A stretch of 64,000 nucleotides of DNA. It comes from Isoetes taiwanensis. Taxonomy: Eukaryota; Streptophyta; Lycopodiopsida; Isoetales; Isoetaceae. The notes under the pieces were generated by a model that was not told where the DNA came from, made no database searches, and saw nothing but the letters and a program-made list of their open reading frames with translations. Positions within the stretch are counted from its first letter, which is position 1. Each line of letters starts with the position of its first letter. Shown piece after piece: positions 1-33,045 of this stretch. The translations under genes were made by a program, and so were the position numbers. The stretch is taken from positions 2,974,751 through 3,038,750 of the forward strand of contig JAJEKV010000030.1 of NCBI GenBank assembly GCA_021234155.1. Direction: 5' to 3'.

Positions 1-1407
1 TGGGAAGGCGCCACCTGCCCCAATCGATTGGCCAAGCATGGGGGTTTCCAAGTTAGGCTGTCAACCTGATCCCAATCCCTGTGTTGACTCCCCCAATTCG
101 GCCAAAGAAGGAGCAGGAGCTGAGCGCCATCATACCCCGTCGAGCAAGTCGAACCTCGTGAAGCAAAAGGCTGAATCCTCAAAGTCCCAAGAGATGGAAG
201 CGCCCCATGGTAACGAGTCCAGCCAGAACTCAGGTGGGTGGCTAGGATAGCCGTGAATTCTAGATAACGCCCTATTGGGCCTTGGTTGTGTTCAGATCTC
301 TCTGTTCTCTTTGTGTTCAATCATAGAAACTAACCCTTGATTGTTAAAGAAAGTTCTCTTTTATTCGATTCTGTTCTTACTCAAAAGGATGGATTGTTAG
401 TTCTTTGTTTAATCTTACTCAAATGAGGGGGATTACGGGGGGTAGAGACCTCTGAACCGTGTATTGTAGTATGCTCCTAGATAGCCTCAGAGAGTCCCAT
501 TAGTTGCGGCAGTGCACAAGAGCCCACCGGGTCCTAGATGCTATGGTCCGCTTAGCACGAGACAAGGAACACAAGGTGAAGTGGGGGTGGGGTCTTGCAC
601 GAACATACAAGGCTCCTGAGAGACTCCTACAAAGGAGCTAGGCCCGATGGCCGGTCCACGAGGGGGCGGTATGGGTCCGACACTCCCCGGTGTAGAGGTG
701 TGACCCGTGATGGGGCACCTTGCACTTTGAGTAGATTTAGGGTGAGTAAGTCTGCACGGATGCGGGGTCGCTGATGCGGCGATTCTCTAGCTCACCCATG
801 GAACCACCGTGGATTCGGAAGGGGACGCCCCCCGCCTTCCTCATCTGGACCGGTGTGTCATGAACCCGAGTAGGCTCAGAGGGTGATACCCCTGAGCTTG
901 CATCTCCCTGGAAGGCTATAGCGAAAGCCATAGCATGAATTGACCCATCCGCAAAGTGTGCAATGGGAGGGGCGGATGGAGTGGACAACCCTAGCCGATG
1001 TTCTATGCCACCTAACGCCATGCCAAGACTTCGGTCTGCCGATCTCTTGAGGCCCGGTTCGCCAACGATCCTCATTGAGTCCGAAAGCCGGTAGAACCCG
1101 GGTTTGGGCGTTTTCTTAGGTTTAGATACATATTCTATGCATGGTATTTGATGGATGCCCACCCTTCGTGGTGGTTATTTATGTATATTTGTGCCGTGGT
1201 GCTAACCCTTGTATTCATGCTTCCGCGACGTAGGAGTCCCATTGAAGGCGTGGGCGAATGACCCCTTCAGAAACCTTCTTTCGGGCATCATTTCATAGAT
1301 GACCAAACAGACGGAGGGCCCCGCCATGGTGGGATGATCGCCATGGGAGGGAAAGTCCTCGCATGTATACCTACGAGGGTCGGTCGATATATTCCGGGAG
1401 CGCCACA
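1..1407 (+). repeat. 5' LTR of the chromovirus (partial)
   Basis: Matches 18692-20114 along its whole length and ends in CACA at 1404-1407, directly before the primer-binding site. The first 224 bp (U3 with TATA box) are left of the window. Differences from the 3' copy are mostly short indels at CAG/CTG or CG sites, for example GAACCGTG here against GAACAGGTG there. LTR divergence is therefore a poor clock in this assembly. Short ORFs inside it are not supported as genes. Confidence 0.9.
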
Positions 1408-1424
1408 AGGTATCGAGCCATGAT
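1408..1424 (+). other. Primer-binding site, tRNA-iMet type
   Basis: Immediately after the LTR end the sequence reads AGGTATCGAGCCATG. The usual plant initiator-Met site is TGGTATCAGAGC. The match is clear apart from the first base and a missing A in CAG (CAG read as CG). The same lesion is seen at the primer site of the array element at 33-64 kb. Confidence 0.75.
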
Positions 1425-2174: not shown

Positions 2175-3407
2175 ATGGCCATCACCAAGAGCGCCCCGGA
2201 TCCATCTACCTTGAGCATCGTGGAGATCTACGCCATGATTGCCAAGCACATGGCTACCGACCCAGCTTTCATTGACATATTGCTGGATGAGCTGGTGAAC
2301 AGGTTTGAGAACAACGATAGGATTCCATATCCTATCTATCACTTCTCAGAGCCATTCTTGATCCGGCTGAACCTTCGCCAGCTCTCCTACACTATTGTTG
2401 AGCAACCTGACATGGTTATGATGCTCATCAAATTCTATCCTCCCGAGCAAGAGGGCCATACGGAGGAGGAAGATATTAGGGCAGAGGCTGACCGTGTCAG
2501 GGGTTTGGCCAGGGAAGATGATCACCGGGAGATTGAGCGGGCAGATACGGCAGCCAGGGGAAAGGAGTACAGGTACCTCGGGGACGGCTTTGCCGTCATT
2601 GATGGCAGGGCCATTGAGATTCCCCCATACCGCTGGCATGAGGGTTCCAACAGTTTTGTATGGGGAGAAATCCCCGATATCAGTATAGAATATCTGACCA
2701 CTATTCAGATAGATATGGGTCTGCGGCCACAACGGTACCAAGCTGAACTTAATCGCCATGCCGCAGCCCAGCTTTTTGCTCAGATCCAAGAAGATCTGAG
2801 GAGAGCCCGGGAAGAACGGGAGAAGCTTGAGCAGGATGAGCGGGACCGGCAAGACCAGCGGGACCACCAAGAGGGAGGTGCATCTGGGAGTGGGTCGGGC
2901 CCAAAACCGACGCATCAGACTGTTAAGCACCGGAGGAAGGGTCTAGCCCATAAGACCGGCAGCCAGTACAAAGAGAAACTAAGGACTGTCGGGGCTTTTG
3001 GGAAGAAGACAAGCTCCGACCGGAGGCAAAGAACGGTGGACAACTCCCCGACCGTTCTTGTAAGACGGTGCCAAGACCAACGGGCCACCAGAAGCCCGGG
3101 CACGGCCGAAGCCTCACCGGCATCGCCAGGCAGACCGGGCCTTGCATGAAATCCGCAAGTTCCGTGGTCTACCGAAGCTTCGATCGGGAAGCTACCCTTC
3201 CGGGAGGCCGGGTAATGAGATCGCGCACAGCTTCAAGACCGATCTCCGCTTTCCGCACCTTTTGCCATTTTGGCGCCCAAGAGGTCTGAAGCCTACTTGG
3301 TGGCACTTTTTGGTGACGCCAATCTTTGCGCTATCCACGCCAAGAGGGTCACCATAATGCCTAAGGATCTAGCCCTCGCCCGCAGGATACGGGGGGAGCA
3401 TCCTTAG
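2175..3407 (+). pseudogene. ORF A: unknown N-terminal domain fused to a histone H3 fold
   Basis: First of three ORFs between the primer site and gag. From ATG 2175 the frame is open to 3149. Codons 1-195 form an unrecognised domain. Codons 196-237 are highly charged and likely helical (repeated E/R/Q). A GASGSGSG linker follows, then a basic tail. From 3109 a histone H3 core is plain: KPHRHRQADRALHEIRKF (frame 1), GKLPFREA at about 3187-3210 (frame 2), [12 protein letters not shown] (frame 1), then [18 protein letters not shown] and [20 protein letters not shown], ending in TAG at 3405-3407 (frame 0). Canonical H3 has PHRYRPGTVALREIRK, KLPF, EIAQDFKTDLRF and [15 protein letters not shown] in the same order and spacing. 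The shifts compensate each other, and two lie at CCG or homopolymer sites. Loop 1 is H3-like rather than CENH3-like. The tail lacks the ARKS motifs. Function is unknown; if translated as one chain it would be about 410 aa. Confidence 0.85.
3109..3407 (+). other. Histone H3 fold domain within ORF A
   Basis: About 99 codons collinear with the alphaN-alpha1-loop1-alpha2-alpha3 core of histone H3. Residues kept include the alphaN REIRK-like block (HEIRKF), KLPF, FKTDLRF of loop 1, AYLVALF of alpha2, the Cys-Ala-Ile-His-Ala-Lys-Arg block and RRIRGE at the C terminus. The segment between FKTDLRF and SEAYLV has the expected length if one base is extra near 3271. Compared with plant H3, alpha2 is the most changed part. 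It is an H3 homologue by sequence; whether it enters nucleosomes cannot be told from here. Confidence 0.9.
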
Positions 3408-3605
3408 CTTACTTGCGGGAGTCCGCATTTGTAAATATTTTCTTGTGATATTTAATAGAGAAACTTTTATTTTGAATTAAAAGTTTAATGGTTTTATGTT
3501 AAAAATAAAATAAAATGCTGATGTCAGCCTCAATAAAAGGGTTTAAAAGGGGACTTTAAAAGTTATTTCAAACGTTTCTTCTCCTCTCTCCTCCCTTCTA
3601 GCGCC
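3408..3605 (+). other. AT-rich spacer between ORF A and ORF B
   Basis: About 200 bp of A/T-rich DNA with no open frame, followed by a pyrimidine run (about 3570-3600) just before the ATG at 3606. Similar spacers follow ORF B (5003-5196) and ORF C (5686-5927), giving the cassette an ORF-spacer-ORF-spacer layout. No splice or terminator signal can be asserted. Confidence 0.5.
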
Positions 3606-5002
3606 ATGGTCGCCGGCCTTCTTGCCACCGGTACCATGATGGAGAGAAATGGGATTCGCAAGTCCCTTTTCGACGACTGCCGCAGCCTTTGCTATGCCAA
3701 CGATAGACCTCCTTGCCAATATGCGCAGCAAGATCCTGATTACGGGATTCCTTGACTTCTACATGGAGGAAATGCTTCCTCTGTATTCCTCTTGGGGGAT
3801 CCTCCCCACCAGTATTTGGCGCGGAGGTAGTCCCACAGATGTTAGGGCGGGACACACACGCTTATGACGCCTTGAAGGGGAAGTCTGATGGGGTAAGCAC
3901 TTGCCGGTGGTCCAACATCGTGGGCCAGCAATATCTGGAAGTTACTTTAAGCCCTAGCCATCCTCATGGACCAATACGTTGAGGATGAAACCTTGCCTCA
4001 GAGAAGGGCAAGTCAGCCAGAGTCTTTCGAGGAGGGGATGATGAGCACATAGGTATGGGCTTACTTTTGCCCGTTGAGGCGAAATAGCTGGAGGAGTTAC
4101 CATCACGGCCGTGAACAAGCTATAGGCTTGTCGATTAGACGGCCTCCCAGTTATCTATCACCAAGGGCAAGAATACCTTCTCTTGGATGATATTATCTGG
4201 ACGTATCACATGGTGGCCGGATTTCGACGCAAGCGCAAAGACCATATACTCTACGAGCTTGCGGAGTATTGTATGGATGATTTTATCGACTTCACTTCTA
4301 CCGAGCTTCCTCCAGAGGTGCACCAGCTGCTTCAGTTCCGCCAGGAGACCATAGAGCCGGCCGAGACTTTACTACGTCTTCGGGACTTTGTGATGCAGGA
4401 GCCGGCTTCGCAGCCTTCACCCGATGCTTTCACGGCTATGGGACCTCACGTCCCAAACATCAATATGGTTGAGGTTCCCTCTGACTCAGATGATGAGGGA
4501 GAGGATTTATATCATAATCCTGCGCATAAGGAGGAGCAACAGGAGCTTAAAGAGGAAGAAGTCCCCATGGACTTGGATAAGGAAGTGGCTACATCCGAGA
4601 CCCCGCAAGGGAAGGTGCTGGGTAACCACCTCACCCGTTTCTTTTTGTCAGCCTTCCGACACGGGCAGGTCCTTTTCATAGCCCGAGATCTAGGGCCAGA
4701 GGCTGAAACTTCTTGGTGGGCCCTCCGCGTTCCTCTACACCGGCCGGCCACAAGAAAGTTCCCTATCGTGACGCTTACTTATGTACTGCATTTACGGGAT
4801 CTCGCCTCGACGCCTTGGGTCGATATTGCACCTTGATGGGCATGAAGCTCCTCACGCCGCCCCATTGGCCGTTGCCTATCCACCGGGAGGTTGCATCCGC
4901 ATGCGGCTGCCACGGTAGACCCCGGGGGTAGCGCTTATCGCGACAATCGAGCCTCCACCACCTCCTAGGACCACGGATGAAGAGGCAGGACCTAGCTCCT
5001 AG
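3606..5002 (+). pseudogene. ORF B of the 5' cassette, unknown protein, several frame breaks
   Basis: A coding-like stretch starting at ATG 3606 (MVAGLLATGTMMERNG) and moving among frames. Segments that read as protein include MPTIDLLANM and FLDFYMEEML (about 3697-3780), FGAEVVPQMLGRDTHAYDAL (about 3817-3876), LPVIYHQGQEYLLLDDIIWT (about 4143-4202), a long open part to 4836 with an acidic Ser/Asp/Glu stretch (MVEVPSDSDDEGEDLY), and DEEAGPSS before TAG at about 5000. No family is recognised. The EYLLL-acidic combination resembles the plus-strand fragment at 20940-21160. It could be an old captured host gene or a lineage-specific retroelement protein. Confidence 0.5.
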
Positions 5003-5196: not shown

Positions 5197-5685
5197 ATGT
5201 TCTCTATTCATTCCAACTATGTTGCAGAGGAGACTATTTGGGAATATGAGGAGAGGATTACCGATATGGTTAGGAGGGACGACCCCGGACCACCAGACCA
5301 GGACTATGGCCAGAGATATGGTGAATACCCAGAGTGGGATGAAGGCTATGAGATCGAACCACTGCCACCAGGGGAACCCTATGATCCTGACAAAGGACTG
5401 GAGATAGTTAACATCCTCAGGGACCGAGCTTTCAAGGATCTGAAGATGACCTTGTGCCGTACCTGGGACTATTGGAACATGAGCAGGCACGAAGCTTTCG
5501 AGGACGCCAACGACCACCTTTGGCAACTCTTCTATGCTATGCGAAGGCTTTTCAATCTTCTCGTTATCAGCCCAACGTGGGAATACCAACCAGTGATTGT
5601 CCAAGCCTGGGCACGCTATAAACTCGTTCGAGCTGTACGGGAGAGTACCCGCTACGCCATCCTATACCCCTTCGCGAACCCCTAG
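5197..5685 (+). CDS. ORF C of the 5' cassette, unknown 162-aa protein
   Basis: Intact frame from ATG 5197 to TAG 5683. The N-terminal third is acidic and rich in Asp, Glu, Pro and Tyr (for example DEGYEIEPLPPGEPYDPDKG). The C-terminal half is Trp/Arg-rich and predicted helical (TLCRTWDYWNMSRHEAFEDA, then WQLFYAMRRLFNLLV). No motif I recognise. It sits 240 bp upstream of gag and is bounded by AT-rich spacers. Its intact frame next to broken neighbours is notable. Confidence 0.5.
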   Translation: MFSIHSNYVAEETIWEYEERITDMVRRDDPGPPDQDYGQRYGEYPEWDEGYEIEPLPPGEPYDPDKGLEIVNILRDRAFKDLKMTLCRTWDYWNMSRHEAFEDANDHLWQLFYAMRRLFNLLVISPTWEYQPVIVQAWARYKLVRAVRESTRYAILYPFANP

Positions 5686-5927: not shown

Positions 5928-7073
5928 ATGCTCGCTATAGACGGTGTACGTAACGCCGCTTGGCAAACACCCTCCAACGCCAGTAGGCTGACACCTGAAC
6001 AAGAATTGATGTTAATGAAAAGGCAACTCGGCGAATTACAGGCCTATGTATTGCACACCAATCCACCGCAACAAACCCAGGAGGACGGACCAGAATTACC
6101 TCCGCGACCAATGAGTCCACCTGCACAACAGCCATCTCCCCCTAGCACTAGCCCTGTACCTGTACTAAGGAGGCCTCATGCTAAGCGTCACCGAAGTTCC
6201 TCTAAGGATAGCGCCACTTCCACACACTCAACCACTTCGGTGTCTTCTGGGTCATCGCTATCAGTCAGTGACCATGCAAAGCGTAAGGATAAGGAATACC
6301 GTAAAACCGTTGATACAGCCATAACTAGTATATGGAAGAACAGGAAGCTAGCTCAGTTTGATGGGAAATCCAGAGGCGGCTTCAATGCAGAATCCTGGTT
6401 GGACGAGATGAAGGAGTTTGGAAAATCCTATGGAATGACAGAGAAGGACACAGGAAAGGTTGCTACCACCAACCTTACCGGAGCTGCCCGTATTTGGTGG
6501 AAGGGTTATGCCAGAGCTAAGCACCTGGACAGGAGCAGGTGCAAGTTCAAAAAGTTCGCTAAGGCTTCTAAATCGCATTATGTGCCCCGTGCGCACAAAT
6601 GCCAACAGATCCAGACCTTTTACAGGTTAGAACAGAAGGGCATGTCCGTTCAGGCCTACACTGATGAATTCATGCGATTGAGGTTGTATGTACCAGGAAT
6701 GAATGAAAAGAGGGCAGTAGAGGGCTACATTGAAGGGTTGGCCCCATCCATTAAACGCATGGTTAAGGCCATAGACCCAAAATCAGTAGCAGAAGCGGAA
6801 GCTAAGGCGTTAAGCCTCGAGGAGGACACGCCAAGGAACCAGTATCCGCGACCTGCTCCTTATTCGCAGCCACGGCCGTCCACACCTTACAAACCCCGTT
6901 CGCCAAGTCCGGGGCCTTCTCAGCAGAACTCTTACAGCCGCCAGGAGAAGAAAGTCACCTTTAGCACGCCAGATAAGCAGAACAATGCCGGTAAGGAAGT
7001 TCGGAACCTCTTACAGTCCATTCCTAAAGAGGCGGAACAGCCTCACCGAGATAAGGCATGCTACAGTGTATGA
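5928..7073 (+). CDS. gag: Gag polyprotein of the chromovirus
   Basis: Open frame of 381 codons from ATG 5928. A Pro/Ser-rich N-terminal third (residues about 45-120) is followed by a Ty3/gypsy capsid region (about 140-250). Family hallmarks visible are AESWLDEMKEF, ARIWWKGYA, FYRLEQKGMSVQAYTDEFMR and VEGYIEGLAPSIKRMV. A basic, Pro-rich tail follows. The frame closes with TGA right after CYSV, at the place where a CCHC zinc knuckle usually sits; the downstream bases can be read as His and Cys codons in another frame, so the knuckle seems broken by a stop and a shift. Structural role: particle assembly and RNA packaging. Confidence 0.9.
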   Translation: MLAIDGVRNAAWQTPSNASRLTPEQELMLMKRQLGELQAYVLHTNPPQQTQEDGPELPPRPMSPPAQQPSPPSTSPVPVLRRPHAKRHRSSSKDSATSTHSTTSVSSGSSLSVSDHAKRKDKEYRKTVDTAITSIWKNRKLAQFDGKSRGGFNAESWLDEMKEFGKSYGMTEKDTGKVATTNLTGAARIWWKGYARAKHLDRSRCKFKKFAKASKSHYVPRAHKCQQIQTFYRLEQKGMSVQAYTDEFMRLRLYVPGMNEKRAVEGYIEGLAPSIKRMVKAIDPKSVAEAEAKALSLEEDTPRNQYPRPAPYSQPRPSTPYKPRSPSPGPSQQNSYSRQEKKVTFSTPDKQNNAGKEVRNLLQSIPKEAEQPHRDKACYSV

Positions 7074-7199
7074 GGCCCGGACACTTCATGCACTGTTCTT
7101 TTACGCCACGCCAGACGCCTAACTTGCCATGGCCGAATCTTTGATTGGGAAGATCCGAGTCCAATCACCCCGCCGAGGACGAGGCTCCCGAGTACATTC

Positions 7200-7680
7200 A
7201 CGGGTAAGTCTCATATTCTTGCCACTATAGAAACCGGCAACGCTGAAAGTCAGCCCCTCATTATCTCTACAATAGGCCAAGTAGACAAGAAGCCTTTCAT
7301 AATTTTGATGGATACGGGTAGTAATGCATAATTTTGCTTCCCCTAGAATGGCCCGTATTACAAACTGAAACATTGAGATCCCGACCTAAGCCGATTCACG
7401 CTTAGCCGCTGGTAAGATCGACACACTCATGGCCACCGCATTAACCTTAAAAATGCGTTCTTGCGGCACCGGTTGCCTTGGGTGCCGAAGTTAATGGACA
7501 TTGGCAAATATGATCTTATTGTTGGTATGGAGTTTTGGCATCTGCGAAGGCCAACATAGATCGGCGAGAAACGAGGTTACCTTCAACGCCGCTAATGGAG
7601 CACGCGTGACAATAAAAGGTGATCCATTCCACTCGCTATCCAAATCTATGTCAATCAAGCAGCTTAGGAAAAAGCTATAA
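7200..7680 (+). pseudogene. pol: Aspartic protease segment of pol, frame-broken
   Basis: The active-site triad is seen as ILMDTGSNA at 7302-7328 with the Asp codon at 7311, preceded by a hydrophobic strand (KKPFII). Further on, in another frame, KYDLIVGMEFW (about 7506-7538) matches the flap-to-C-terminal strand typical of retroviral-type proteases. The two parts lie in different frames, with stops between (TAA after SNA) and TAA at 7678-7680 before the RT frame. The role would be polyprotein cleavage; as written it is not translatable in one piece. Confidence 0.75.
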
Positions 7681-10600
7681 TGCCAGGATGAACTCCTTTG
7701 CCTCATTACATTTGCCTCCATTGAGTCTGACACTAAGCAGAAGCAAGTAATAGACACCTTGCCACCAGACATTGCCACCCTTTTTCGAGAGTTTAGCGAT
7801 CTTTTTCCAGATGAGATCCAGAAGCTTCCTCCTTTCAGAGGGGTAGAATGTGAAATAGCTCTAGAACCAGGCACTAAGCCTACCAGCAAGGCCCCGTACC
7901 GAATGAGTCCTCCAGAGTTAGCAGAGCTTAAGAAACAACTACACGAGCTGCTAAACTTGGGGTTTATTCGGCCTAGTGTTTCACCATTTGGCGCTCCTAT
8001 TCTTTTTGTCAAGAAGAAAGATGGCTCCTTAAGGATGTGTATTGATTATAGGCAACTCAATAAGCATACCATCAAGAATCGCTATGCTTTGCCTAGGGCA
8101 GATGATCTTATGGACTAGTTACAAGGGGCCAAATATTTCTCAAAGATTGATTTGCGCTCCGGGTACCATCAAATAAGGATAAAGGAGGAGGACATTCATA
8201 AGTCTGCTTTTCGCACCAGATATGGGCATTATGAGTTCACCGTCATGCCTTTCGGATTAACCAATGCCCCTGCAACGTTTATGCGCTTGATGAATGACAT
8301 CTTCCGCCAATACTTGGATGACTTTGTTGTTATTTTCTTTGACGACATTCTCATCTATAGTAAAACCTTGCAGCAACATGAACAACATCTTCTATTGGCT
8401 TTGCAAAAGCTAAGGCGTCATCAGCTCTTCGCCAAGTTCTCTAAATGCAAGTTTGCCACTCCCAAGGTCGACTATTTGGGGCATATTATTTCAGCAGAGG
8501 GAATTGCTACTGATCCAGCCAAGATTGAAGCAGTACAGGATTGGCCTATTCCAGGTAATGTTTCAGAAGTCAGGAGCTTCTTGGGACTCGCGAGATATTA
8601 CCAGAAATTTGTTAAGGATTTTGCAACAATTGCCGCACCTCTTACTAATCTCACAAAGCATGAGAAAGTGAAGGATTGGATGGAACATTGGAAAGCAAAA
8701 GTCCAAGTCGGCTTTCAGAAGCTCAAGGATGCTTTAACATCTGCACCGGTCCTCACTTTGCCCGATCCTGAAAAGGATAAATCGGTGGCCACTGATGCTA
8801 GTAAGATAGCTACCGGTGGGGTGCTAATGCAGGAGGGGAGAGTTGTTGCCTACGATTCAAAGAAGATGAATGATGCAGAACAGCGATACCCTACCCATGA
8901 TCAGGAGCTGCTGGCAGTTGTCCGCGCTCTCCGTATTTGGAGACACTATCTTCTTGGTAGAAGATTTTAGCTAGATACGGATCATCAGAGTCTCCGTTAT
9001 CTATCCACCCAGACAAATCTCAATCTCCGTCAGAGAAGATGGATGGAATTCCTCGAGGAATACGACTTCGAGATTGTATACAAGCCAGGGAAGCACAATG
9101 TGGTTGCGGATGCTTTATCACGTCATCCTTTGATAACCCGAACCCATTGTAACGCCATTTCCACACTCACCAGCGAGTTTGGGAAACAGATAGAACAGAC
9201 CCTGACCACAGATCCTGAATTTTGTAATGTTTGGGAAAGTTTGGGTAAAGAAGCCCGTACAGATAAAGAATGGGAAGCTTTTCGTCCATATAAGAAAGAG
9301 GGCAACTTATTATATCACAAGGATAAGTTGTGTGTTCCGGAGACTTCGGGGGTGCGCAAGCTAATTCTCCATGACACACACAACAGCCCTATAGCGGGAC
9401 ATGCGGGTTTCATGAAAACTTATTTTAAGATCCGCTCCAGCTATTTTTGGCCTTCGATGAAGAAGGATATTGCTAGGTACATCAAGCAGTGTCAGGTGTG
9501 TCAACAAACCAAGGCTGAGCAATTAAGAACTCCAGGAGAGTTGCAACCTTTGGATGTGCCCAACGCCAAGTGGGAAGTCATAACCATGGATTTTATTGTG
9601 GGCCTTCCACGCACTCTCCGTGGATATGATGCATTAATGGTAGTGGTCGACAAATTGTCAAAGATGGCTCACTTCCTGCCATGTCGCACCACGGACACCG
9701 CCTTCGACACCGCCTTGCTCTTTGCAAAAGAAATTTTCAGGTTGCACGGGATGCCGAGAGTGATTGTATCAGACAGGGATCCTAAGTTTGTAAGTGCATT
9801 CTGGAAGGACTTCTTCGCCACCATCCAGACCAAGCTTGCCATGAGTACAGCTTACCATCCTCGCATCGGATGGTCGTATTTAACGCGTGTCAATCGTATT
9901 ATCGAAGATATGCTACGAAGCTATGTATGGAGTAAACAGTCACAATGGGCGGATTATATTTATCTGGTAGAGTTCGCCTATAACAGTACAAAGCAGGAGT
10001 CTTCCAAGATGTCTCCCTTCATGATAAATTATGGCTATCAATGTCTTACTCCAGACACATGGCATAACCCTGTTTCTAAAGTGGAGGTCTCTCAACAACT
10101 CCTTTTAGAAATGCAGGCCTTGGTGGAGGAAGTTCGTGGTTACTTATTGGCGGCACGCAGTCGTCAGAAGAGTCTAGCGGATAAGCACCGAACCCCACGA
10201 GTCTTCCAGGTGGGCGAATCAGTTTGGCTTAAGATCAAAGTAAAACAAGCCAAGCTTAAAATTGGTAACTGTAAGAAGTTGGCACCCAGATGGGCTGGGC
10301 CGTTCAAGATTACTGAACGCGTGGGAGAACAAGCATATCGCTTAGACTTGCCGCCCCGCTTGAAGATCCACAAGGTCTTTCACGTGAGTCTTCTGAAACA
10401 ACACACCCCTGATCCAGAGGAGGTTTTGGATACCCCAACCCTCCTAGAAATGACTGAAGAGCAGCTGGAAATAGTGCCCGAAGCTCTTCTTGATCGAGCT
10501 TACAAACAGACCAGAAGGACTCAAATGTTGCAATACTTGGTCAAGTGGAAGCACTTACCAGTTGAAGATGCTACCTGGGTGATGAAGATAGACCTTGAGA

Positions 10601-10830
10601 AGCACTATCCGGACTTCATGCGGGAATCTCAGGGCCGCACCATCAACGATGCTATCAACTCCGCTCTCGGCGGTAAGCTTGAAGGCTTGATTTGCCGAGA
10701 ATCATGTTCTAGAGGGGTAGATGCATCGTATCTTATAATAATAACCGATGATGAGATCACCTTGGTGTTCTCTAGGACGTGGTGTATTGTTGATGTTGGC
10801 ATGACCGCGCATTGCTTGAAAAGCATCTAG
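7681..10830 (+). pseudogene. pol: Pol: reverse transcriptase, RNase H, integrase and chromodomain
   Basis: One frame runs from 7681 to 10830 with only two in-frame TAG stops (8116-8118 and 8968-8970). [48 protein letters not shown], and the catalytic box as FFDD (8335-8346), where Tyr is usual in the first position. RNase H: ATDAS at about 8788, DQELLAV, and DTDHQSL just after the second TAG, keeping the D-E-D residues. Integrase: HHCC zinc finger (HDTHNSPIAGH to CQVCQQTK), DDE residues at about 9589 (TMDFIVG), 9772 (VSDRDPKF) and 9904 (RIIEDML). The stretch between HP and RVNR is corrupted at codons where Gln is usual. A GPFKI box follows at about 10300. The chromodomain is described separately. 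The two TAGs could be deaminated codons. Confidence 0.92.
10468..10620 (+). other. Chromodomain at the integrase C terminus
   Basis: After the integrase C-terminal domain and FHVSLLKQH, the protein continues with VPEALLDRAYKQTRR, then MLQYLVKWKHLPVEDATWV and a helix (DLEKHYPDFM). The YLVKWK...ATW pattern is the chromodomain core with its aromatic residues. In chromoviruses this module is known to direct integration toward particular chromatin marks. Here it occurs in the same element as an H3-like protein. Confidence 0.88.
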
Positions 10831-10970
10831 TAAATAGACTGCGTTCATTTCGGCTATACGGGGAACTGAACCATTCCTTATGCCGCAATGAATTGCAAGC
10901 CATAGACATGATAGGTCCCCTTCTAGATACATTTTCTTTTATTTATAGGGGGTGGTCCCTTCAACCACAA

Positions 10971-11123
10971 TGCCACGGTTCTATTGCGACAGCAATAGAA
11001 CCGACATTCCTTGGATGGGGACGTCCCTTTGTCACTCCTCCTATTTATTCAGCCTCTCTTCATTGTTCTGTCATCGGCGTTCTCTTGAGCTAGTTTTCTC
11101 CTTCTTCTCTATCCTATCAGTTT
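10971..11123 (+). repeat. Dispersed promoter-like head, copy 1
   Basis: Begins TGCCACGG and contains a perfect 11-bp hairpin (GGTTCTATTGC/GCAATAGAACC, 10977-11002, loop GACA). A conserved GACATTCCTTGGATGGGG stretch follows, then a TATA-like CCTATTTATTC and a long C/T leader. The same module recurs at 17118-17271 and, diverged, on the minus strand from 24673. The order hairpin, TATA, pyrimidine leader suggests a small LTR or Pol II promoter. Confidence 0.6.
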
Positions 11124-14100
11124 TCTCATCTCCTCCTAGTTTCATCATCTCTAGTTTCATCCATCGCTCTTCTAGCTTTGTGTTAGAGACTTATCCGTGC
11201 CTAGGTTATACACGCACGCTTCTGCCCTGCATCCAAAACTTTGTCTTTTTCAACTTATGTTTAGATCCGGGCCGGTGTTTTTCTCGGAGAGATTTACCTC
11301 CAAATACTTCTTTGGCGGGATGGCATTTTTCCAATCGACTTGCATCCGACAGCTTTCCGGTATGAGATCGTATTTTTACTCACTAATTGATTGTTTTATG
11401 CTTAGTTTTTCTTTGTGTTTCCTTCTGGACGGAGCTATTCTTTGCTTTCGATGCTTGGTCGCCTTTAGGTTCGCATTGTGTTTTGGGCCTCCGATTCAGG
11501 ATTGCTAGCATGATTCATCAAGATCGGTTAGTTTCTCTGTTTACTGATTGTTGATGGTTTTATCCGGTGCTTCTGTATTCCTATTTATTGTGGTTTTCCC
11601 TATTTGTTGTTGGTTATCTCCTGTCTGATATGCCGCAGCCGATTCGTCTGCCAATAAGAATTGAAGTTTGAGTTCCCTTATTCTGTTGTTTCTTCGGGAG
11701 TTGTTCCACGACCCAGACGGGCCGTTTCTTTTGCCCTATTCCCATATGTTTGTTCCAGTTTTGCTTGCTCGAATCTGTTCTCCAGTTGCCTTGCTTTGTC
11801 CAGATTCATGCCCAACCGGGGCTTTTTCCTTTAACCGTGAACTGTTGTCTTGTATGGGTCGCTTTTTCTGGTCCTCTGTCCTTTACGATTCACCAATAGT
11901 GATAGCTTAAGCTCCCCTGACGGGCTGGGTTTCTTCAGCTGCATAGACGTCATCATCCTCTGCCTCTGAACATCTAGTTTCTGGCTCTGTTTCCTGTTGC
12001 TTTAACCCGGATTCTTGCTTGAAATCGTAGCCTCCCGTCTTCCTGATTTGATCCTGGCGCCTTCTTGCTTAACCTGTAGATTCTTCTGTCTTGTTAAATG
12101 TCTTGTTAAAGCAGGCTGCGCTTCTATAAGATTCTACATTTGTTTTTACGGCTTGCAGCTTCCGTTTTTGTGTTTTCATGGTTTATGATGGTTTATGATG
12201 TAAATCAGATTGGCATCCTCAAATGTTATCAGGGAATCGGTGGCCACCGCCTTTGCACACTTCATAGTTTTGGCATGCCATCTTAGGTTGGGCGTAGCCA
12301 GTCATAACCTCTTCCATTATAATATGCTTTATGCTTTATGTTATTTAATTTTTTACTAAAATGTCTGAGTGACGTTTTGTTGGTGGCCGTTTGTTATCTA
12401 ATGTGTTTGTTTTGTTTGTGCGAAAGCAGGATTTCAACATTTTCCTTTTTCTTCTTCAAGCAATTTTTTGATTTATCAAGTTCATTTTGTGTCTCCACGG
12501 GGGCACTTATTTGGCCTCCCCCTTGCGCCACTCTCCATATTCTCCCTTTCTTTTCTATAGGTCGGGCTTTGGAATAGATTTTCCCATTGGAACGTATGGG
12601 TGGAGGTTTTAGTTCTTTTGGAAACGTAGGGATGGAGGTCATTTCAGGTACATATCGGACGATTTTATAGTTATGGCTATTTGGTTGTTTCAAGTATTCT
12701 TTAGTACGTTAAAGGTCGTTTCAATTTCACGAAACCTTTGTAACGGGATTTTTTCTCCTTTTGTTTGCATCGCTTTGAGTGTTTTACGGTTCTTTATATT
12801 TTCACCATCTGGCAAAGATAGTTTCCACATTCGCCTTTCATAGAAACATAATGATGTCACATTTGTACTTTTTGCGGTTGATCGAGCTTTTTCTACCAGT
12901 TGGTTGGTTGGACTCCTCTTTGTCTTCTTCTTGGAGGTTCTTGCCATGTTTTGGTGCTACTATTTGGCATGGTTGTTTCTCATTCCATCCTAGCTTTGCT
13001 GGTCCTCTCCCATATTTACATGCAGTTTGTTTGTAGATTCGATTTGCTATACTTTTGATGCTGACATTTGGCATGATATTTTTAACACCTCTAACATAAC
13101 TATTAGAGGTCTTGCCCCATAGACGACTGTTTATCTTTTCCTAATTTTTCGTATTTCATGGTGTGATTCCACTTGTTGATTTCTTTGGAAGTATTGAAGA
13201 GCCTAGTGCTTTTGCAATTTCCCTATGATATACAGGTGTATGTGAGCTATGAATTTCTATTTATATTGTTATTTGACTTGGCCACTCATGGTACATCTTG
13301 ATGATTAGTCCTGCTACGTAGTCATGGTGGGTTGGTATTCATGGTGAGTGGTTGTCCACATTCGGTCACCCATACTTGCCAGATGTTGTTCCATTTTTTG
13401 ACATTCTTCATAGTTTCATTTAATGCATGTTGGTTTGTTCTTGGATATTACATCCATGTTTCTCTAGTTCGTATTTTCGGTTGGCTATGAGTACTTTCCA
13501 TTGTCCAAGTTCCATTGTTCTGGTTCAAGATTGTTTTTTATTGTTTTATTCCTTGTTTTTTGATATGTTATGTAGCGATGTTTCCTAGTTCCCTTAATGG
13601 CCTAGATGTTTGACCATGTTACCTGCTCCAGGATTTATGCTCTCATGTTCTTCCTCCATCAACCACTCCTTTGCTCCATTAACTCACCATTGTATGTTCG
13701 TTGGCCACTTTGTCTGATCATTATCTTAGTGAGAATCCAGCGAGCGTATCTTATCTCAACCAAGATTATGATTCTCGTTTTTCTCATTATCTGATTGTCT
13801 TTTGCCATTTTGTCAGTTAGCTTTTCTGAGAATTGAACCCACCGCTACATCTGGTCTCGTTTTTGTTCCCATCTTTGTCGTGGATATTGATAATTTTCTC
13901 GTTTTTACATGTTGGTTGATTCTGCATTGACGTTCTTGTTGTGTTCACTTTGCAGACATTTTTTGATGATGCGTATTTGGCCCATGGTTCATTTTATCGT
14001 CGCATATATTTCTCATTCTCCAGCATGAAATGATGCATTTTGGATTTTGGTTTGGCTAAACGGTTGCATTATTTGGTAATCTTAGCCTTTTGGTTGCCAT

Positions 14101-17078: not shown

Positions 17079-17117
17079 CGGCCAGTATATGCCTATCATA
17101 GGACCCATCCTAGGAAT
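17079..17117 (+). repeat. 39-bp direct repeat, left copy
   Basis: Begins CGGCCAGTATATGCCTATCA and is identical to 18055-18093. The two copies bracket a 937-bp segment that starts exactly with promoter-like head copy 2. Confidence 0.9.
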
Positions 17118-17271
17118 GCCCGCGGTTCTATTAAGCGACAATAGAACCGACATTCCTTGGATGGGGGCGCCCCTTTGTCACTCCTCCTATTTATTCAAAT
17201 TCTCTTCATTGTTACGTCGCCATGCGTTCTCTTGAGCTAGTTTTTCTCCTTCTTCTCTATCCTATCGGTTT
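17118..17271 (+). repeat. Dispersed promoter-like head, copy 2
   Basis: Same module as 10971-11123: hairpin with GGTTCTATT and AATAGAACC arms, the GACATTCCTTGGATGGGG block, CCTATTTATTC and a pyrimidine leader. Homology stops near 17271, and the sequences that follow the two heads are unrelated. Confidence 0.65.
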
Positions 17272-17450
17272 CCCTCACCCTCCCTCCCTTGGCGGTTTTT
17301 CATTTGATCATGTTCAAGTATTTCTTTTTTTCTATGTCCTTTAAATTTGCATTCTTTATTTCCTCCGGCTTTGTTGCCTTTTGAGGCATACTTATTGGTT
17401 TACTCTTTCTCGGCATGGCACTAGTATTTTTATTTATTTATTCATTTATG

Positions 17451-18467: not shown

Positions 18468-20114
18468 TGTGACGTTCCGCGTATTTATACGGTCCACGTC
18501 ACGTATTTATATGGGACACGTACAAATACACGCACGTCACCCTCTATAAATGTACGCCACCATGGGGGTATTGGAATAGGGGGGTTACTCTAAAAAGGAT
18601 TAAATTAGCTATGCTAATTTAACACATTAAATATAATAACCTATAACTTAGGAAATTAAGACTAAATAGAATTAATTAGGCTAATTACTATTTGGGAAGG
18701 TGCCACCTGCCCCAATCGATTGGCCAAGCATGGGGGTTTCCAAGTTAGGCTGTCAACCTGATCCCAATCCCTGTGTTGACTCCCTCAATTCGGCCAAAGA
18801 AGGAGCAGGAGCTGAGCGCCATCATACCTGTCAGAGCAAGTCGAACCTGTGAAGCAAAAGGCTGAATCCTCAAAGTCCCAAGAGATGGAAGCACCCCATG
18901 GTAACGAGTCCAGCCAGAACTCAGGTGGGTGGCTAGGATAGCCGTGAATTCTAGATAACGCCCCTATTGGGCCTTGGTTGTGTTCGTATCTCTGTTCTCT
19001 TTGTGTTCAATCATAGAAACTAACCCTTGATTGTTAAAGAAAGTTCTCTTTTTATTCGATTCTGGTTCTTACTCTGAAAGGATGGATTGTTAGTTCTTTG
19101 TTTAATCTTACTCTGAAATGAGGGGGGGATTACGGGGTAGAGACCTCTGAACAGGTGTATTGTAGTATGCTCCTAGATAGCTACTGTAGAGTCCCATTAG
19201 TTGCGACAGGCACAAGAGCCCACCGGGTCCTAGATGCTATGGTCTGGCTTAGCACCGCACAAAGGAACACAAAGGGTGAAGTGGGGGTGGGGTCTTGCAC
19301 CTAACATACAAGGCTCACGAGACTCCTACAAAGGTGAGCTAGGCCCGATGGCCCGTCCGCGTGGGGCGGGTATGGGTCCGACACTCCCCAGGTGTAGAGG
19401 TGTGACCCGCATGGGGCACCTTTGCACTTTGAGTAGATTTAGGGTGAGTAAGTTCGGGTGCGGATGCGGGGGTCGCTGATGCGCACGTATTCTCTAGCTC
19501 ACCCATGGAACCACCGTGATTACGGAAGGGGGCGCCTCCCAGGCACCTGCCTCATCGGACCAGGCGTCATGAACCTGGAGTAGGCTCAGAGGGTGATACC
19601 CTGAGCTTGCGTCTCCGGAAGGCTATAGCGAAGCCATAGCATGAATTGACCCATCTGCAAAGTGTGCACAGGAGGGGCGGATGGAGTGGACAACCCTAGC
19701 CGATGTTCTATGCCGATAGACGCCATGCCAAGACTTCGGTCTGCTGATCTCTTGAGGCCCAGTAGTCAATATCCTCATTGGAGTCCGTAGGGGTAGAACA
19801 CCGGGTTTGGGCGTTTTCTTAGGTTTAGATGCATATTCTATGCAGATGGTATTTGGATGGATGCGCCACCCTTCGTGGTGGTTATTTATGTATATTTGTG
19901 CTGTGTGCTAACCCTTGTATTCATGCTTCCGCGACGTAGGAGTCCCATTGAAGGCGTGGGCCGAATGACCCCTTCGTGTCCTTCTTTCGGGCATCATTTC
20001 ATAGATGACCCGAAACAGACGGAGGGCCCTGCTCATGGTGGGATGATCGCCATGGGAGGGGAAAGTCCCCGTATGTATACGGCCGAGGGTCGTATATATT
20101 CTGGGAGCGTCACA
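18468..20114 (+). repeat. 3' LTR of the chromovirus (complete, 1647 bp)
   Basis: Starts TGTGACG after the polypurine tract and ends CACA at 20111-20114, matching the 5' copy end at 1407. The first 224 bp are the U3 promoter, with paired ACGT boxes and a TATA box at 18544. No gene is supported inside it. Confidence 0.93.
18480..18551 (+). promoter_or_regulatory. LTR promoter: paired ACGT modules and TATA box
   Basis: Two 20-bp modules, CGTATTTATACGGTCCACGT (18480-18499) and CGTATTTATATGGGACACGT (18502-18521), lie 22 bp apart. They are followed by more ACGT cores and CTCTATAAATG at about 18542-18552. ACGT cores are typical binding sites of plant bZIP and bHLH factors. The TATA box would start the retrotransposon transcript. 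Confidence 0.6.
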
Positions 20115-20176
20115 ACTATGGTCAAAATTTTATGGCTGAATACAAGAAGAAGAAAGACGCCCCAGAAAAAAGGCCG
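20115..20176 (+). pseudogene. C-terminal end of an interrupted reading frame
   Basis: Directly after the 3' LTR a frame reads YGQNFMAEYKKKKDAPEKRP and then TGA. The Lys-rich, stop-terminated tail looks like the end of a protein whose upstream part lies left of the window, split by the retrotransposon insertion. It is short, so this is a suggestion only. Confidence 0.3.
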
Positions 20177-20510
20177 TGAAGTGCCTTTGTGTTTTTTTCA
20201 TATGTATAATATTCTTTAATGTAATGGCTTTCCTTATAAGCTTCATCTCTTAGTCCATTTCTTTCTTAGAAGCCTAGGTTCGCACTTTGTATTTTTCTTT
20301 TTTTTAAGGTTATACGTGCGCAGTAAGCATTGTGCTTTTTTTTGTACATACTAGTTTTCGCGTCGTGTGATCCAACCCTAAAATGTACGGACAAATCTCC
20401 CCACAACGGCTATGTCCCCTTTCATAATCAACAACGGCTACTTGAGTTCAGAAGTGACAGCACCTTACCGCTCCTAAATATCTCCTTGCATTCGTCGTCT
20501 GCTTCGCCAT
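20177..20510 (+). other. AT-rich intergenic stretch, no gene seen
   Basis: T-rich DNA with several poly-T runs, then a less biased part leading to the ATG near 20511. Nothing codes convincingly. Confidence 0.5.
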
Positions 20511-28629: not shown

Positions 28630-31400
28630 CTGTGTCATCAATATATTAAAAGAATGGTAATATTACAAAGCAAGTGAGGAGGAAGGAGAACTGCCCCAAA
28701 GAGACAGTGATACCTCGACACTCCACAACAAACTCACAGAAAAACTGCAACTCTACTGCTGCACAAATCGACCATCACCATCCACAGCACCCAAGAAGTC
28801 CCGCCAAATGGCAAATTTCTGCTCTACTACTCCCGGGAACCAGAAAGCTTTGAAATAATTTGTACCTGAGTCGAGGAATCAGAGAGGCTGCAGGCTGCTG
28901 AATCCCCTGAAAGATCCACAACCATCGCCGCTTCCAAATCAGCCACACCAACCAAGCCAACATGAAGCAGCAACTGCTGGCTAGTCAATCTCACCTGAAA
29001 CAGAGCCCTAACCCAATCCCAGGCAGCCTGCAAGTGAGGGCATAAAATCAGACAATGCTCCACAGTCTCACAATGAAGGCCACAACAAGGGTAGAGAGGG
29101 CTCACACCCGGCCTAAACCAACTCACAAGGGCATTCACCCTGATACAGCAGTGCACCACCTGCCACAGAAGCACCCTAACCTTCGGTGGGGGAAGTGAGC
29201 TCCATGTCCACGTCCAAACCGAGCGCCATCGAGAACCCGGAAGCTACAGAGACCACTTGCCTGAAGGGGCAGTGTGTCATGAATAGCCAGCACCCGGTAA
29301 GAAGATCGCACAAAGCAAGAAGACACAACATCCGGATGAACCTTCCAAACCTGCACCACCACATCATCCTGAGGGACTATAGGTATGTGTAGTGAAATAG
29401 TCCCCGCCACGTGTTCCCGTGATAGCCCTGTCCACACGCCCCTTAGGGCTAAAAGCGAGCTCGAAGAACTCCCACGGCTAGCTGACCTCCCCAACACCAA
29501 TCCTCCAAGGTGAGCACAAAGAGCTCGCCTCCAACGGGCTCAAGGCCCGAGAGCATGCATGCTGGCAGCCAAGGGCAAGCGCAGGGGTAGAGGAACCCAC
29601 AAGAAAGGAGAAGAGTGGTGATAAACCGAGGCATAATCTAGCCGGAAGAGGACACGCATTATGATCCCAAGCCCGCAACACTCCTGTGAGAAAAGGGATG
29701 CATGTGGGAAAGGCCAAAGACCATACAACAAAGGTTTAGGGCAACTCTACATGCACAGGGCTTCCCAAATGCCACACAATGGCGAAGAGATCGCAACAAC
29801 AAATACCCCACCGGAGAGAAGATGCTCCATCCTGCAGAATGCTCCAAACAAACTTGGAGACCAACACCTTACTATGCAGCGCCAAATCCAGAATGGCCAA
29901 GCCCCCATCCTCCCGGGAGCGGAGACACTTCCACCAAGCCACTTTAACAACTGCCCCTTCATCATCTCCGCCCCACACAAAATTTCGAACAATCTTATCA
30001 AAAGCCTGTATCTTACCCTCAGGAGCTAGCATCGCATATGCTGTATACACATGAGTGCTAGAAAGTACTGACTTGGCAATAGTGATCCGACCTGCCACGG
30101 ACAACTTGCTACCCTTCCACCAATTGAGGTGTTTCTGCAACCCCTGCAAAATCTCATCCCACACCCTCCCCATGGAAACATCCCCTCCAAAGGGAATACC
30201 CAATAGCTTAGTACATATATTACCTGGAAGCACCTTCCAAGGGAATAGAGCCAAACAAGGGGGAGGCGGAGTCAGCTGGGCCCATCCCAATTCAGAAGAA
30301 TGCCTGAGGCCAAGGAGAAAGTATCCAACAAACCCTTCACATTCCGCAAATTCCTCTCTTCTGCCACCAAGAAGAGGAAAGTGTCATCGACAACCGGTTA
30401 ATAATCTGCTAGCTACCATCCCGTGATCCGAAGCCCATCCACCACTCCCTCCTCCACTGCAGCCAAAACAAGCGAGACAAAGGCTCCGCCACAATCGTAA
30501 ACAAAACGGGCGCCAAAGGGCACCCTTGACGCACCCTACGCCTAAGGAGAAAAAGCGGAGGGTTCACCCCGCACACCACCGTGAGTCCGTGGCCGACCTA
30601 TGCGGCTTCATGATCGCTCTCTCAAAGCGTGGACCACGGCCCAATGCTAACATCATGGCAGACAAAGAACTCCCAACGGACACTATCGTAAGCTTTAGCA
30701 AAGTCAAGCTTAAAGATAGGCAATGCGTTGACCTGTTGTTCTTCCGCCCAATAAAGGCCCTCATAAGCCGCGGCAACATTAGTCAAAATGTTCCTCCTGT
30801 GGACAAACCCGCATCGCACCTTACTAATGGAAGAAGTCAACACTGGCTTCAACTTCTCTACCAGGGCTTTCGCAATAATCTTATACACAGAGAACAACAA
30901 GGAGATAGGCCTCCAATCATTAATAGTAGAAGGCTGCTTGATCTTAGGGATCAAGGAAATGCATGCGGTATTCAAGATCCTATCCATTTGAGAAGACTAC
31001 AGCAACTCAAGATACACCTGGTACACTGACTCACCAGCCCACTCCCAATAAGTCTGAAAGAACTCCACAAGGATGCCATCAAGCCCAGGACATTTATCCT
31101 TGGCCATGCACATACATGCCGCCGCTAAATCCTCTCTAGAGAGCTCCTACTCCAAGCTCTCACGCTGGTGAGGCAGAATAGATGGCTTAACAGCCCCCAA
31201 AACAAGCTCCTGCATCTCCTGCTCATAGGGAAGAGTGCGATGTGCGAAAAACCCTGAGAAATGGGCATGCACATACCTCTGCAAATCAGCGGGATCCTCC
31301 AAAGTCCGACCATCCGACAAAGCAAGGGACGCCATAGATGCTGCATATCGCCGCTGCCTAGCCGCTTTCGAGGAAAAGAACACCGACGAACTTGTGTCCC
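28630..31400 (-). pseudogene. LINE ORF2: reverse transcriptase and C-terminal zinc-knuckle region
   Basis: Minus strand. Just upstream of RT is KCPGLDGILVEFFQTYW (about 31110-31050). Then ISLIPKIKQPSTINDWRPIS, VYKIIAKALVEKLKP, RCGFVHRRNI and FKLDFAKAYDSVRW (30987-30660) give RT motifs 1 to A. The catalytic DD box at about 30385 reads VVDDTFLFL, where an aromatic-Ala pair is usual before DD. Next come KLLGIPFGG, WWKGSKLSVAGRITIAKSVL and VAWWKCLRSREDGGLAILD (30235-29860). The end has the zinc-binding zf-RVT pattern YPCCGLHCETVEHCLILCPH (about 29090-29030). The frames are interrupted several times. The RT would copy the LINE RNA at a nicked target. Confidence 0.85.
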
Positions 31401-31405
31401 CTCCT

Positions 31406-32473
31406 TCAACCGGTGGGGCCGCCTTCACACGCGCGTGCCTCCCGCACTTTAACCTGCTCCAGAGCAACAATACGCTGCAACACTGCATTCTCCCTAATGC
31501 CATCAGAAGGGTTGCATTGCCGAATCCTCTCCAGCTCTTGATAGAGACCATGCAACTCCTCCGCCGCCTCTGCCACCGCACGCCTACCAAAGACCTTGCA
31601 AAACGCTTCACCACGCCAACCAGCGGTCACCATACCGGACATACCCTTGAGGAGATGAAAAGGTATCAAGCCACAACTCGGCGCACCGGACCCGAAAATC
31701 GCATCGCCTAGAAGGGTGTTCAAAGCGGAACACCGCCCTAGAGGGCCGAGAGGGCAACCGCACCGACCGGACAAAACCCGAGGGTAATGATCAGAAATGG
31801 AGGTAGACAAAATGTTACTCCGGCGCAAAGAGGGTACACCATCCAGTGCGCATGGGGAAGCATAACACCGGTCATGCCTAGCATACGCCCGGCCTGCACC
31901 AATCTGCCTATTACAATAGGTGAAAGACAAGACCCCAGGGACCTCAACCAAGGCCAAATCCTGCAGCAAACGAGACCATTGATCCCTCTCAAACCCATGC
32001 ACAACTTGGGTTCCAGAACCAGAGCGATCCTCTACTCGCTCTACCATATTGAAGTCCCCTAACAACAACCAAGCGACCTGTAACCCACCAAGGGCTCGCA
32101 ACTTATTCCGAACTGTGGCCCACAAAGCACCCCGCTGAGAAGGCTGATTAGGGGCATAAACATTAACAATCCCCCACTATTGCCCTCCCTCTAACCACTT
32201 AATTATTGCCCATCGACCAAACCCGTCTGCTGCAGAGTACGTGACCTGCACATCCATCCTCCAAGCAATAAGAGTACCCCTACTAGTCCGCCCAGAAGAA
32301 GAAGCAATAGAGGCAAACTGCCTACCAACCATATTCATGAGCCTAGACATATCACCCCTGTGACACTTATGCTCCTGAATACAAACAAGCCGAAGTGCCA
32401 AAGAAACACGGGCCCTCTTACTACTAGAGGACCGCACCCCCCGCACATTCCAACTAAGGATCGACCTATTCAT
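31406..32473 (-). pseudogene. LINE ORF2: apurinic/apyrimidinic-type endonuclease
   Basis: Starts at ATG 32473 (MNRSILSWNVRGV). SWNVRGV and LVCIQEHK are the first two endonuclease motifs. After a stop near 32177 and a shift, LLLGDFNMVE (about 32065) and STSISDHYP (about 31805) give the GDFN and SDH catalytic motifs. The later part (to 31406) is the linker to RT. The endonuclease nicks target DNA for target-primed reverse transcription. Confidence 0.85.
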
Positions 32474-33045
32474 CCCGGAGGAGAAGTGTCCAGCCCCACA
32501 TGCCTACCCACCAGGCCATCAGCCCACTCCATAGAGTCATCATCTAGAGCCAGAGGATTAATCACAACAATGTGACCCACAGCCGCTCTACGTGAGATTC
32601 CACTTCCAACACGTGTTAGAAGTCCCCCAGGAACCTCCATAGAGGCATGGGCCACACTAGTCTCTACCTCCAACTGGGCTGCTCCAACCACCTCATGCTC
32701 AGCACATACCGCTACCGGGACATCCCCACCAGGATCACCAGCCCCTCCCACAGTCCTGTCCTCAGACCTAGCCACAACCAAATCATCTGAGCCCTCCCCT
32801 GAGCCACCACGTCCCCTAGCCCCGCCATCCAATGGGCGGCCAGCAGCAAGCCTGCCCCGGCCTCGTCCCACACCACCTCTCCCAACCACACCACCTCGTC
32901 CAACTCCAGTCACTGCACCACGGAGTCCTATGTCTGTTGCCTCAGGAACAGAGGAATCCCGGGCCCCTGCATAAGCATCCGCAACCCCTATCACATCACA
33001 AGCACCAGCAAGATCATCAACATAGTCAGATGGTAGCACAATAGA
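32470..33045 (-). pseudogene. LINE ORF1, C-terminal part, truncated by insertion
   Basis: Minus-strand frame open from the array border to TGA at 32470-32472. It is rich in Gly, Arg, Asp and Val (GVGRGGVVGRGGVGRGRGR). This composition suits an RNA-binding ORF1 tail, but no zinc knuckle is visible in the part left. Its stop overlaps the ORF2 start as ATGA (32470-32473). The N-terminal part should lie on the far side of the array. Confidence 0.65.

Follow-up and report, generated by a model that had tools for sequence, protein, structure and literature searches.

The stretch of DNA analysed here, called the window in the following, comprises 64,000 nucleotides of Isoetes taiwanensis. It opens within a Ty3/gypsy chromovirus of ~20.3 kb, whose first extra open reading frame, ORF1, ends in a histone H3 fold. 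The features of this element are collected in Table 1.

Table 1. Features of the chromovirus in the window, in window coordinates
Feature	Position	Strand	Basis or remark
5' LTR	1..1407	+	start upstream of the window (L062 position 226, genome C1035:2974526); aligned to 3' LTR
primer-binding-site-like AGGTATCGAGCCATGAT	1408..1424	+	directly after LTR end
ORF1 N-terminal domain, 187 residues, family-private	2175..2735	+	at least 123 scored genome matches to ORF1
ORF1 charged helix / coiled coil, 46 residues	2736..2873	+	structure prediction
ORF1 GS linker and basic tail replacing canonical H3 tail	2874..3108	+	
ORF1 histone H3 fold (H3 residues 37-135) and stop	3109..3407	+	frame-switched in the window copy
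ORF2 remnant (~467 aa in unbroken copies), no known domain	4210..4836	+	
ORF3, 162 aa, no known domain	5197..5685	+	
gag	5928..7073	+	Ty3_capsid E 7.9e-15, Retrotrans_gag E 4.9e-14
pol, reverse transcriptase / RNase H part	8245..8970	+	RVT_1 E 2.6e-19, RT_RNaseH_2 E 7.2e-30
pol, integrase and C-terminal chromodomain	9043..10830	+	Integrase_H2C2 E 1.7e-20, rve E 9.9e-8, Chromo E 6e-8
polypurine tract AGGAGGGGAGAA	18456..18467	+	directly 5' of 3' LTR
3' LTR	18468..20114	+	
target-site duplication ACTAT	20115..20119	+	same five bases close the left flank

The LTR ends (TGTGACG..CGYCACA / CGTCACA) are of the TG..CA type, the duplication ACTAT is found on both sides and a polypurine tract is present, which agrees with the statement of the first-pass annotation that the gene lies between two LTRs. 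The sequence AGGTATCGAGCCATGAT resembles, as we take it, a primer-binding site of the tRNA-iMet type. Alignment of the LTR pair over 1621 bases, which take in a few bases past the LTR ends, gave 1481 identical positions, 70 transitions and 70 transversions (K2P 0.092). In Pfam searches of the frames on either side of 7074-8244, where the protease would lie, the domains followed the order gag, reverse transcriptase, RNase H and integrase, as in Ty3/gypsy elements, and the Chromo domain was located at the C terminus of the integrase (residues 478-526 of 595). A hAT-type transposon with a captured H3, recognisable by TIRs and a hAT transposase, was ruled out, as the element has LTRs, reverse transcriptase and integrase. 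Among the best 120 of 2400 Pol relatives identities were 36-49%, and the named ones include proteins of Tanacetum coccineum, the fern Adiantum nelumboides, Paspalum and entries with PITA identifiers, presumably Pinus taeda. Because the named relatives listed are plant proteins, a plant-like host is indirectly indicated.

Between ORF1 and gag lie two further conserved reading frames, ORF2 (~467 aa) and ORF3 (~162 aa), to which no Pfam family could be assigned (0 of 4 proteins, and likewise none for the window pieces); the Rfam scan of the window gave 0 matches. Downstream of pol, ~7.6 kb precede the 3' LTR. They contain a direct repeat (10969-11136 and 17115-17283, 86% identical), and the longest ATG-started frames listed for them run to 131 and 151 codons.

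The place of insertion is an H3-like gene as well. The element is inserted, with its 5-bp duplication, in the C-terminal extension of a CENH3-like gene (C1035:2973764-2974525 and window 20120-20179). In the left flank (L062/L063) one open frame of 254 codons runs from MARTKQTAR, with a long divergent non-H3 tail and no intron in the stretch read. Its H3 fold has a loop 1 four residues longer and is 53-57% identical to element and host H3s, and its last 75 residues match Pfam Histone with E 9.4e-21. Once one copy of the target-site duplication is removed, the frame runs on for 19 codons to a stop at window 20120-20179. To our eyes these features recall CENH3. That an element with an H3 sits in the gene of an H3 variant could reflect chance or targeting. 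As for the rest of the window, a decayed non-LTR retrotransposon on the minus strand (28827-33102) was recognised by eye from endonuclease-like and reverse-transcriptase-like frames. Positions 33046-64000 hold a tandem array of ~11 copies of a ~2.85-kb unit, 84-91% alike, that continues past the window end; it is possibly a satellite, and no gene was recognised in it.

In the window copy, ORF1 is open from 2175 to 3149 (324 codons), with its stop at 3147-3149 just past the basic tail. The three-frame translation of 2880-3420 showed that the H3 part (3109-3404) alternates between two frames: frame B (3064-3354) contains KPHRHRQADRALHEIRKF plus another H3 piece, and frame A holds the remaining pieces at 3150-3212 (GKLPFREA) and 3219-3407. 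The translation of 3064-3354 matched PDB H3 with E 6.2e-7 and had no Pfam match, as was also the case for the 21-residue piece 3150-3212, while that of 3219-3404 matched both PDB H3 (E 6.8e-18) and Pfam Histone (E 2.2e-14). The window copy is therefore a decayed, broken member of its family. The first-pass annotation had described about 99 ORF1 codons collinear with H3; the H3 match is secure for both long pieces, but they do not form one frame in this copy. A C-terminal histone hit in an HMM search was obtained here for the piece 3219-3404, and again for unbroken copies.

These unbroken copies were found elsewhere in the genome (1,658,258,908 bases). A search with the 324-residue ORF1 gave at least 123 scored matches, all at 70% identity or more, from 5178 first-look candidates; they are spread over many contigs with no special target seen. 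The 30 best-matching loci, the window copy among them (L001), were fetched. Eighteen of them are unbroken from the start codon through N-domain, coiled coil, basic tail and full H3 fold and encode proteins of 409 or 413 aa, and in the other 12, window copy included, the tail or the H3 part is interrupted. All three unbroken proteins tested matched Pfam Histone (E 4.9e-41, 2e-40 and 1.3e-40). With the H3 part present and unbroken in 18 of the 30 best loci, absence of the H3 part from other copies, which had been named as the finding that would speak against the fusion, was not borne out.

The surroundings of 10 of these 18 copies were inspected in ten 10-kb stretches. ORF2 or ORF3 frames lie downstream of ORF1 in all ten, and pol-like frames, judged by eye, in eight (the exceptions being L033 and L036). 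The downstream frames show varying decay: gag-pol of one stretch is a single 1586-codon frame, yet ORF2 is shortened there, and every frame is open at the usual length in none of the ten. In all three copies tested, a 5' LTR precedes ORF1 by the expected distance; it is 82-86% identical to the 3' LTR of the window and in one case comprises the last kilobase only. In none of these three copies did the place predicted for the 3' LTR contain one, so that LTR dating is limited to the window copy. As a whole, the genome copies bear out an H3 fold joined to a domain without known relative that moves with a chromovirus, and this earlier interpretation is supported.

The unbroken copies, in the following subfamily A, show that ORF1 is a protein of 409-413 residues made up of a private N-domain, a coiled coil, a basic tail and a complete H3 fold. 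In the case of the N-domain, no relatives could be detected. A search of 5.8 billion proteins with ORF1 gave none at E<=10 among 2504 word-sharing candidates. In a whole-protein profile search (5488 matches of 7929 candidates scored) none was found among the best 120 matches inspected, whose best BLASTP stretch covered at most 41% of the query, fitting the H3 end. No Pfam family exceeded the cut-off for the N-domain, and among the viral contigs searched for relatives none was confirmed. A helix is predicted at residues 187-234. The single-sequence structure of N-domain and helix was not usable (mean pLDDT 44.7); within the helix, pLDDT is above 50 only at ~205-235 and ~90 or more at 211-230.

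In front of the fold, the canonical ARTKQTARKS..ARKS tail is not present and is replaced by other basic sequence and the N-domain. The ARKS sites are those of H3 K9 and K27. None of 24 proteins (the window, 18 unbroken copies and 5 of other groups) has ARKS before the fold, and RK[S/T] occurs there in three of them, as ARKT in L015, VRKS in L057 and PRKS in L060. The last 80 tail residues contain 14-23 K/R, and the linker and tail motifs YK..L, KK.S..RR and G.K..P are common to subfamilies A and B and partly to C (see below). A basic tail without ARKS had been noted from the window alone; the lack of ARKS holds in all 24 proteins, but instead of being simply missing, the H3 tail has been remodelled into another basic stretch.

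To place the H3 part, a canonical H3 query was run, which gave 9022 first-look candidates, of which 150 were scored. They consist of 15 host H3 genes (12 of them read), whose full-length identity is 96-98%, and 135 other matches at 71-86%. Open frames of at least 400 aa contain 51 of the 150 matches, 49 of these without a stop inside the match. Among the eight loci fetched from this set, two further subfamilies could be distinguished, B (L058, L059 and L061) and C (L060), each with the order N-domain, coil, tail and H3; the start codon lies within the fetched stretch only for L061. L058, L060 and L061 match Pfam Histone with E 1.8e-43 to 3.3e-42. Subfamilies A, B and C are 31-36% identical to each other before the H3 part and 81-87% within it, the B and C loci having been ranked by H3 similarity, which favours high H3 identity.

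The element H3 comprises 99 residues collinear with host H3 without indel (residues 37-135, the alpha-N helix included) at 84-88% identity. In the alignment, lysines 56, 79, 115 and 122 are retained (residue numbering as we assume it), and so are the stretches LCAIHAKR and KDxxLARRIRG, which we take to be the H3-H3' and H4 contact stretches. All three subfamilies differ from host H3 at residues 86, 87, 89, 105, 107, 124 and 135, and V89I, T107A and I124L are identical across three compared sequences, one each of A, B and C. At the chaperone site, the host S-A-V-L is changed to F-A-I-L in A and B and to H-A-I-L in C. According to the available part of PMC9145170, residues 87 and 89 belong to the alpha-2 site deciding between replication-coupled and replication-independent assembly.

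In a maximum-likelihood tree of 71 distinct H3 folds, built on 99 columns with 118 of 120 database rows usable and having many open forks and an unsettled bootstrap, the 14 distinct element H3s group together (support 98/93) beside host H3, and host H3 is placed within the plant H3s at modest support (94/72). The simplest reading of these sequences would be a single H3 capture from a plant-like host. Two other identities were considered and ruled out. CENH3 proteins have a lengthened loop 1 and a strongly diverged fold; in ORF1, loop 1 has the length of host H3 in A, B and C and identity to host H3 is 84-88%. A giant-virus histone of doublet or multiplet type does not agree with the single Histone stretch present in all six proteins searched, nor with the plant H3 neighbours in the tree.

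Selection on the fusion protein was estimated by the Nei-Gojobori method, pooled over pairs, with a codon bootstrap. For the 18 unbroken copies, a sample of loci selected by similarity to the window ORF1, which has no in-frame H3, the pooled dN/dS was 0.056 for H3 (bootstrap 0.018-0.116; dN 0.0127, dS 0.2262) and 0.077 for the N-domain (0.050-0.099); the sample consists of unbroken frames only, with 12 of 30 broken loci excluded. Averaged over the 153 pairs, which are non-independent, dN/dS rises from 0.053 (H3) through 0.072 (N-domain) and 0.090 (coil) to 0.235 (tail). Of 100 H3 codons, 11 vary in residue, 35 vary silently only and 54 are invariant. The pooled values for ORF2 and ORF3 were 0.100 (0.071-0.134; 4 copies) and 0.083 (0.052-0.123; 6 copies). 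Thus the comparison among copies that had been suggested from the sequence points to purifying selection: the H3 fusion is kept by it, and the fusion is common to at least three deep subfamilies. As a separate observation, dS of H3 (0.23) is about half that of the N-domain (0.41) in the same 18 copies, and gene conversion or codon constraint are possible reasons.

Hosts silence transposons by marking the histone H3 tail. We propose that ORF1 may be an H3 mimic which joins host H4 on chromatin with a non-H3 N-terminus and benefits the element by counteracting silencing, a reading to which we give an even chance. In detail, the H3 fold would pair with host H4 and be deposited on chromatin, as the conservation of residues suggests. 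The modifiable H3 tail would thereby be swapped for an ARKS-less tail plus ~230 residues of N-domain and coiled coil, and chromatin on element DNA containing the ORF1 protein would acquire fewer H3K9me and H3K27me marks, with the benefit arising most likely in trans. The changes at residues 87 and 89, where H3.1/H3.3 chaperone recognition takes place, suggest an altered deposition route. The 14-23 K/R of the tail and the RK[S/T] motifs in 3 of 24 proteins weaken the idea of a purely mark-free tail. Moreover, an element whose integrase carries a mark-reading chromodomain could lose its targeting if marks were blocked, which fits better with a role of ORF1 as a tether. In such a role, the H3 fold would dock on H4 or histone chaperones at replicating chromatin, and N-domain and coil would bind Gag or the integration complex and bring the cDNA to its place of integration. 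We consider this unlikely, and nonetheless it is the main rival of the anti-silencing reading, since constraint on the N-domain is roughly equal to that on the H3 fold; dN/dS of 0.077 against 0.056 implies that a non-histone partner is probably needed. A private N-domain would suit an element-specific partner, e.g. the element's own Gag or ORF2/ORF3, and the partly confident helix after the N-domain points the same way. However, the chromodomain of the integrase already serves targeting, the partner is putative, and the many contigs with ORF1 matches do not reveal a special target.

The same fold could also act without being stably built into nucleosomes, namely as a decoy that soaks up H4 or chaperones of the ASF1, CAF-1 or HIRA type and so interferes with the assembly of host nucleosomes, either on newly made cDNA or during S phase. 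This is improbable in our view: the seven residues differing from host H3 in all three subfamilies would agree with it, 87 and 89 lying in the assembly site (PMC9145170, as far as its text was available), but the rest of the fold, with 84-88% of its residues as in host H3, is retained as well, and a protein acting purely as a chaperone decoy would have less need of it. Two further explanations, both very remote, deny the element any use of the gene or any ownership of it. That the H3 piece is a hitch-hiking host fragment, useless to the element, might be argued from the 12 of 30 best loci broken in the tail or H3 part, and host gene fragments are documented in plant elements (PMC7264820, in the part available). 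Nevertheless, H3 dN/dS of 0.056 and the presence of the same fusion in three subfamilies that are 31-36% identical before H3 contradict this, and the passenger fragment is rejected by the selection test. Alternatively, ORF1 could be a domesticated host H3 variant amplified by chance beside elements, as its 84-88% identity to host H3 might suggest. This was rejected on the pol-like frames downstream in eight of ten stretches and ORF2 or ORF3 in all ten, on the 5' LTRs upstream at the expected distance in three of three copies (partial in one), and on the 15 canonical host H3 genes, which are separate from the element copies.

Returning to the H3 mimic, its most far-reaching form would be a ‘parasitic histone’: a fusion H3 built into host nucleosomes, in which an element-encoded domain replaces the tail and writes the element's own silencing-resistant or self-tagging chromatin state, selected across at least three deep subfamilies of a single plant-type genome. 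We regard this as tentative, at somewhat less than an even chance. If true, an element H3 with a private domain in place of the tail would answer host silencing directly on the nucleosome itself, and whether a mobile element can edit its own chromatin could then be tested with a single protein. Few known proteins are as conserved as H3, and an element H3 that evolves under selection with changes in its tail, its chaperone site and a few other residues offers a natural experiment, in which the parts of H3 that serve assembly can be told from those that serve marking.

Comparison with the literature qualifies the novelty of the element. The first-pass annotation knew of no plant LTR retrotransposon with a histone, and none encoding one was found among the matches listed in the open-licence PMC literature; a transposon-borne H3 is however already known from a fungal hAT element (PMC3538342, in the part available). 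Two reviews that deal with extra ORFs and with giant transposons do not contain the word ‘histone’ (PMC7264820; PMC6431247). In the available part of PMC6317226, on extra ORFs of plant LTR elements, no histone-bearing one is described, and the whole text has the word ‘histone’ once. In other respects the element agrees with the plant chromoviruses of that source, which have Gag-Pol with a chromodomain and in which extra ORFs at the 5' side on the forward strand form a recognised class, eORF-5'F. An orchid Ty3/gypsy element with an AlkB-like m6A demethylase ORF is likewise a large plant gypsy element that captured and retained a host-type domain as an extra ORF (PMC9289625, seen in part); that domain is an enzyme acting on RNA, whereas the Isoetes chromovirus encodes a structural chromatin protein.

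Core histones encoded by parasites, with an extended N-terminus, are also found in viruses: the sections available describe, for example, H4 of bracoviruses (CpBV-H4/CvBV-H4) as well as long-tailed single viral H3s (PMC9145170; PMC5423620). These belong to DNA viruses or polydnaviruses without reverse transcription, and their extension is a tail and not a 187-residue domain with a coiled coil. CpBV-H4 joins host nucleosomes and alters host gene expression via its tail (PMC5423620, in part), so it is possible for a parasite histone to act through its extension within host nucleosomes.

The nearest precedent found is the H3-like gene H3L of a hAT DNA transposon in Pyrenophora tritici-repentis, for which we rely on the available part of PMC3538342. 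There too, an H3-like gene is borne by an element and amplified with it. The N-terminal tail of its product is changed, it matches neither a canonical H3 nor a CENH3, and an ORF of unknown function lies alongside. Unlike the present element, the carrier is a fungal DNA transposon with TIRs and without LTR, gag or pol, and no fusion to a large domain is described for H3L in that part of the text. In the case of H3L, 26 very similar copies are reported and its authors consider drift possible, whereas the Isoetes element has three deep subfamilies and measured purifying selection.
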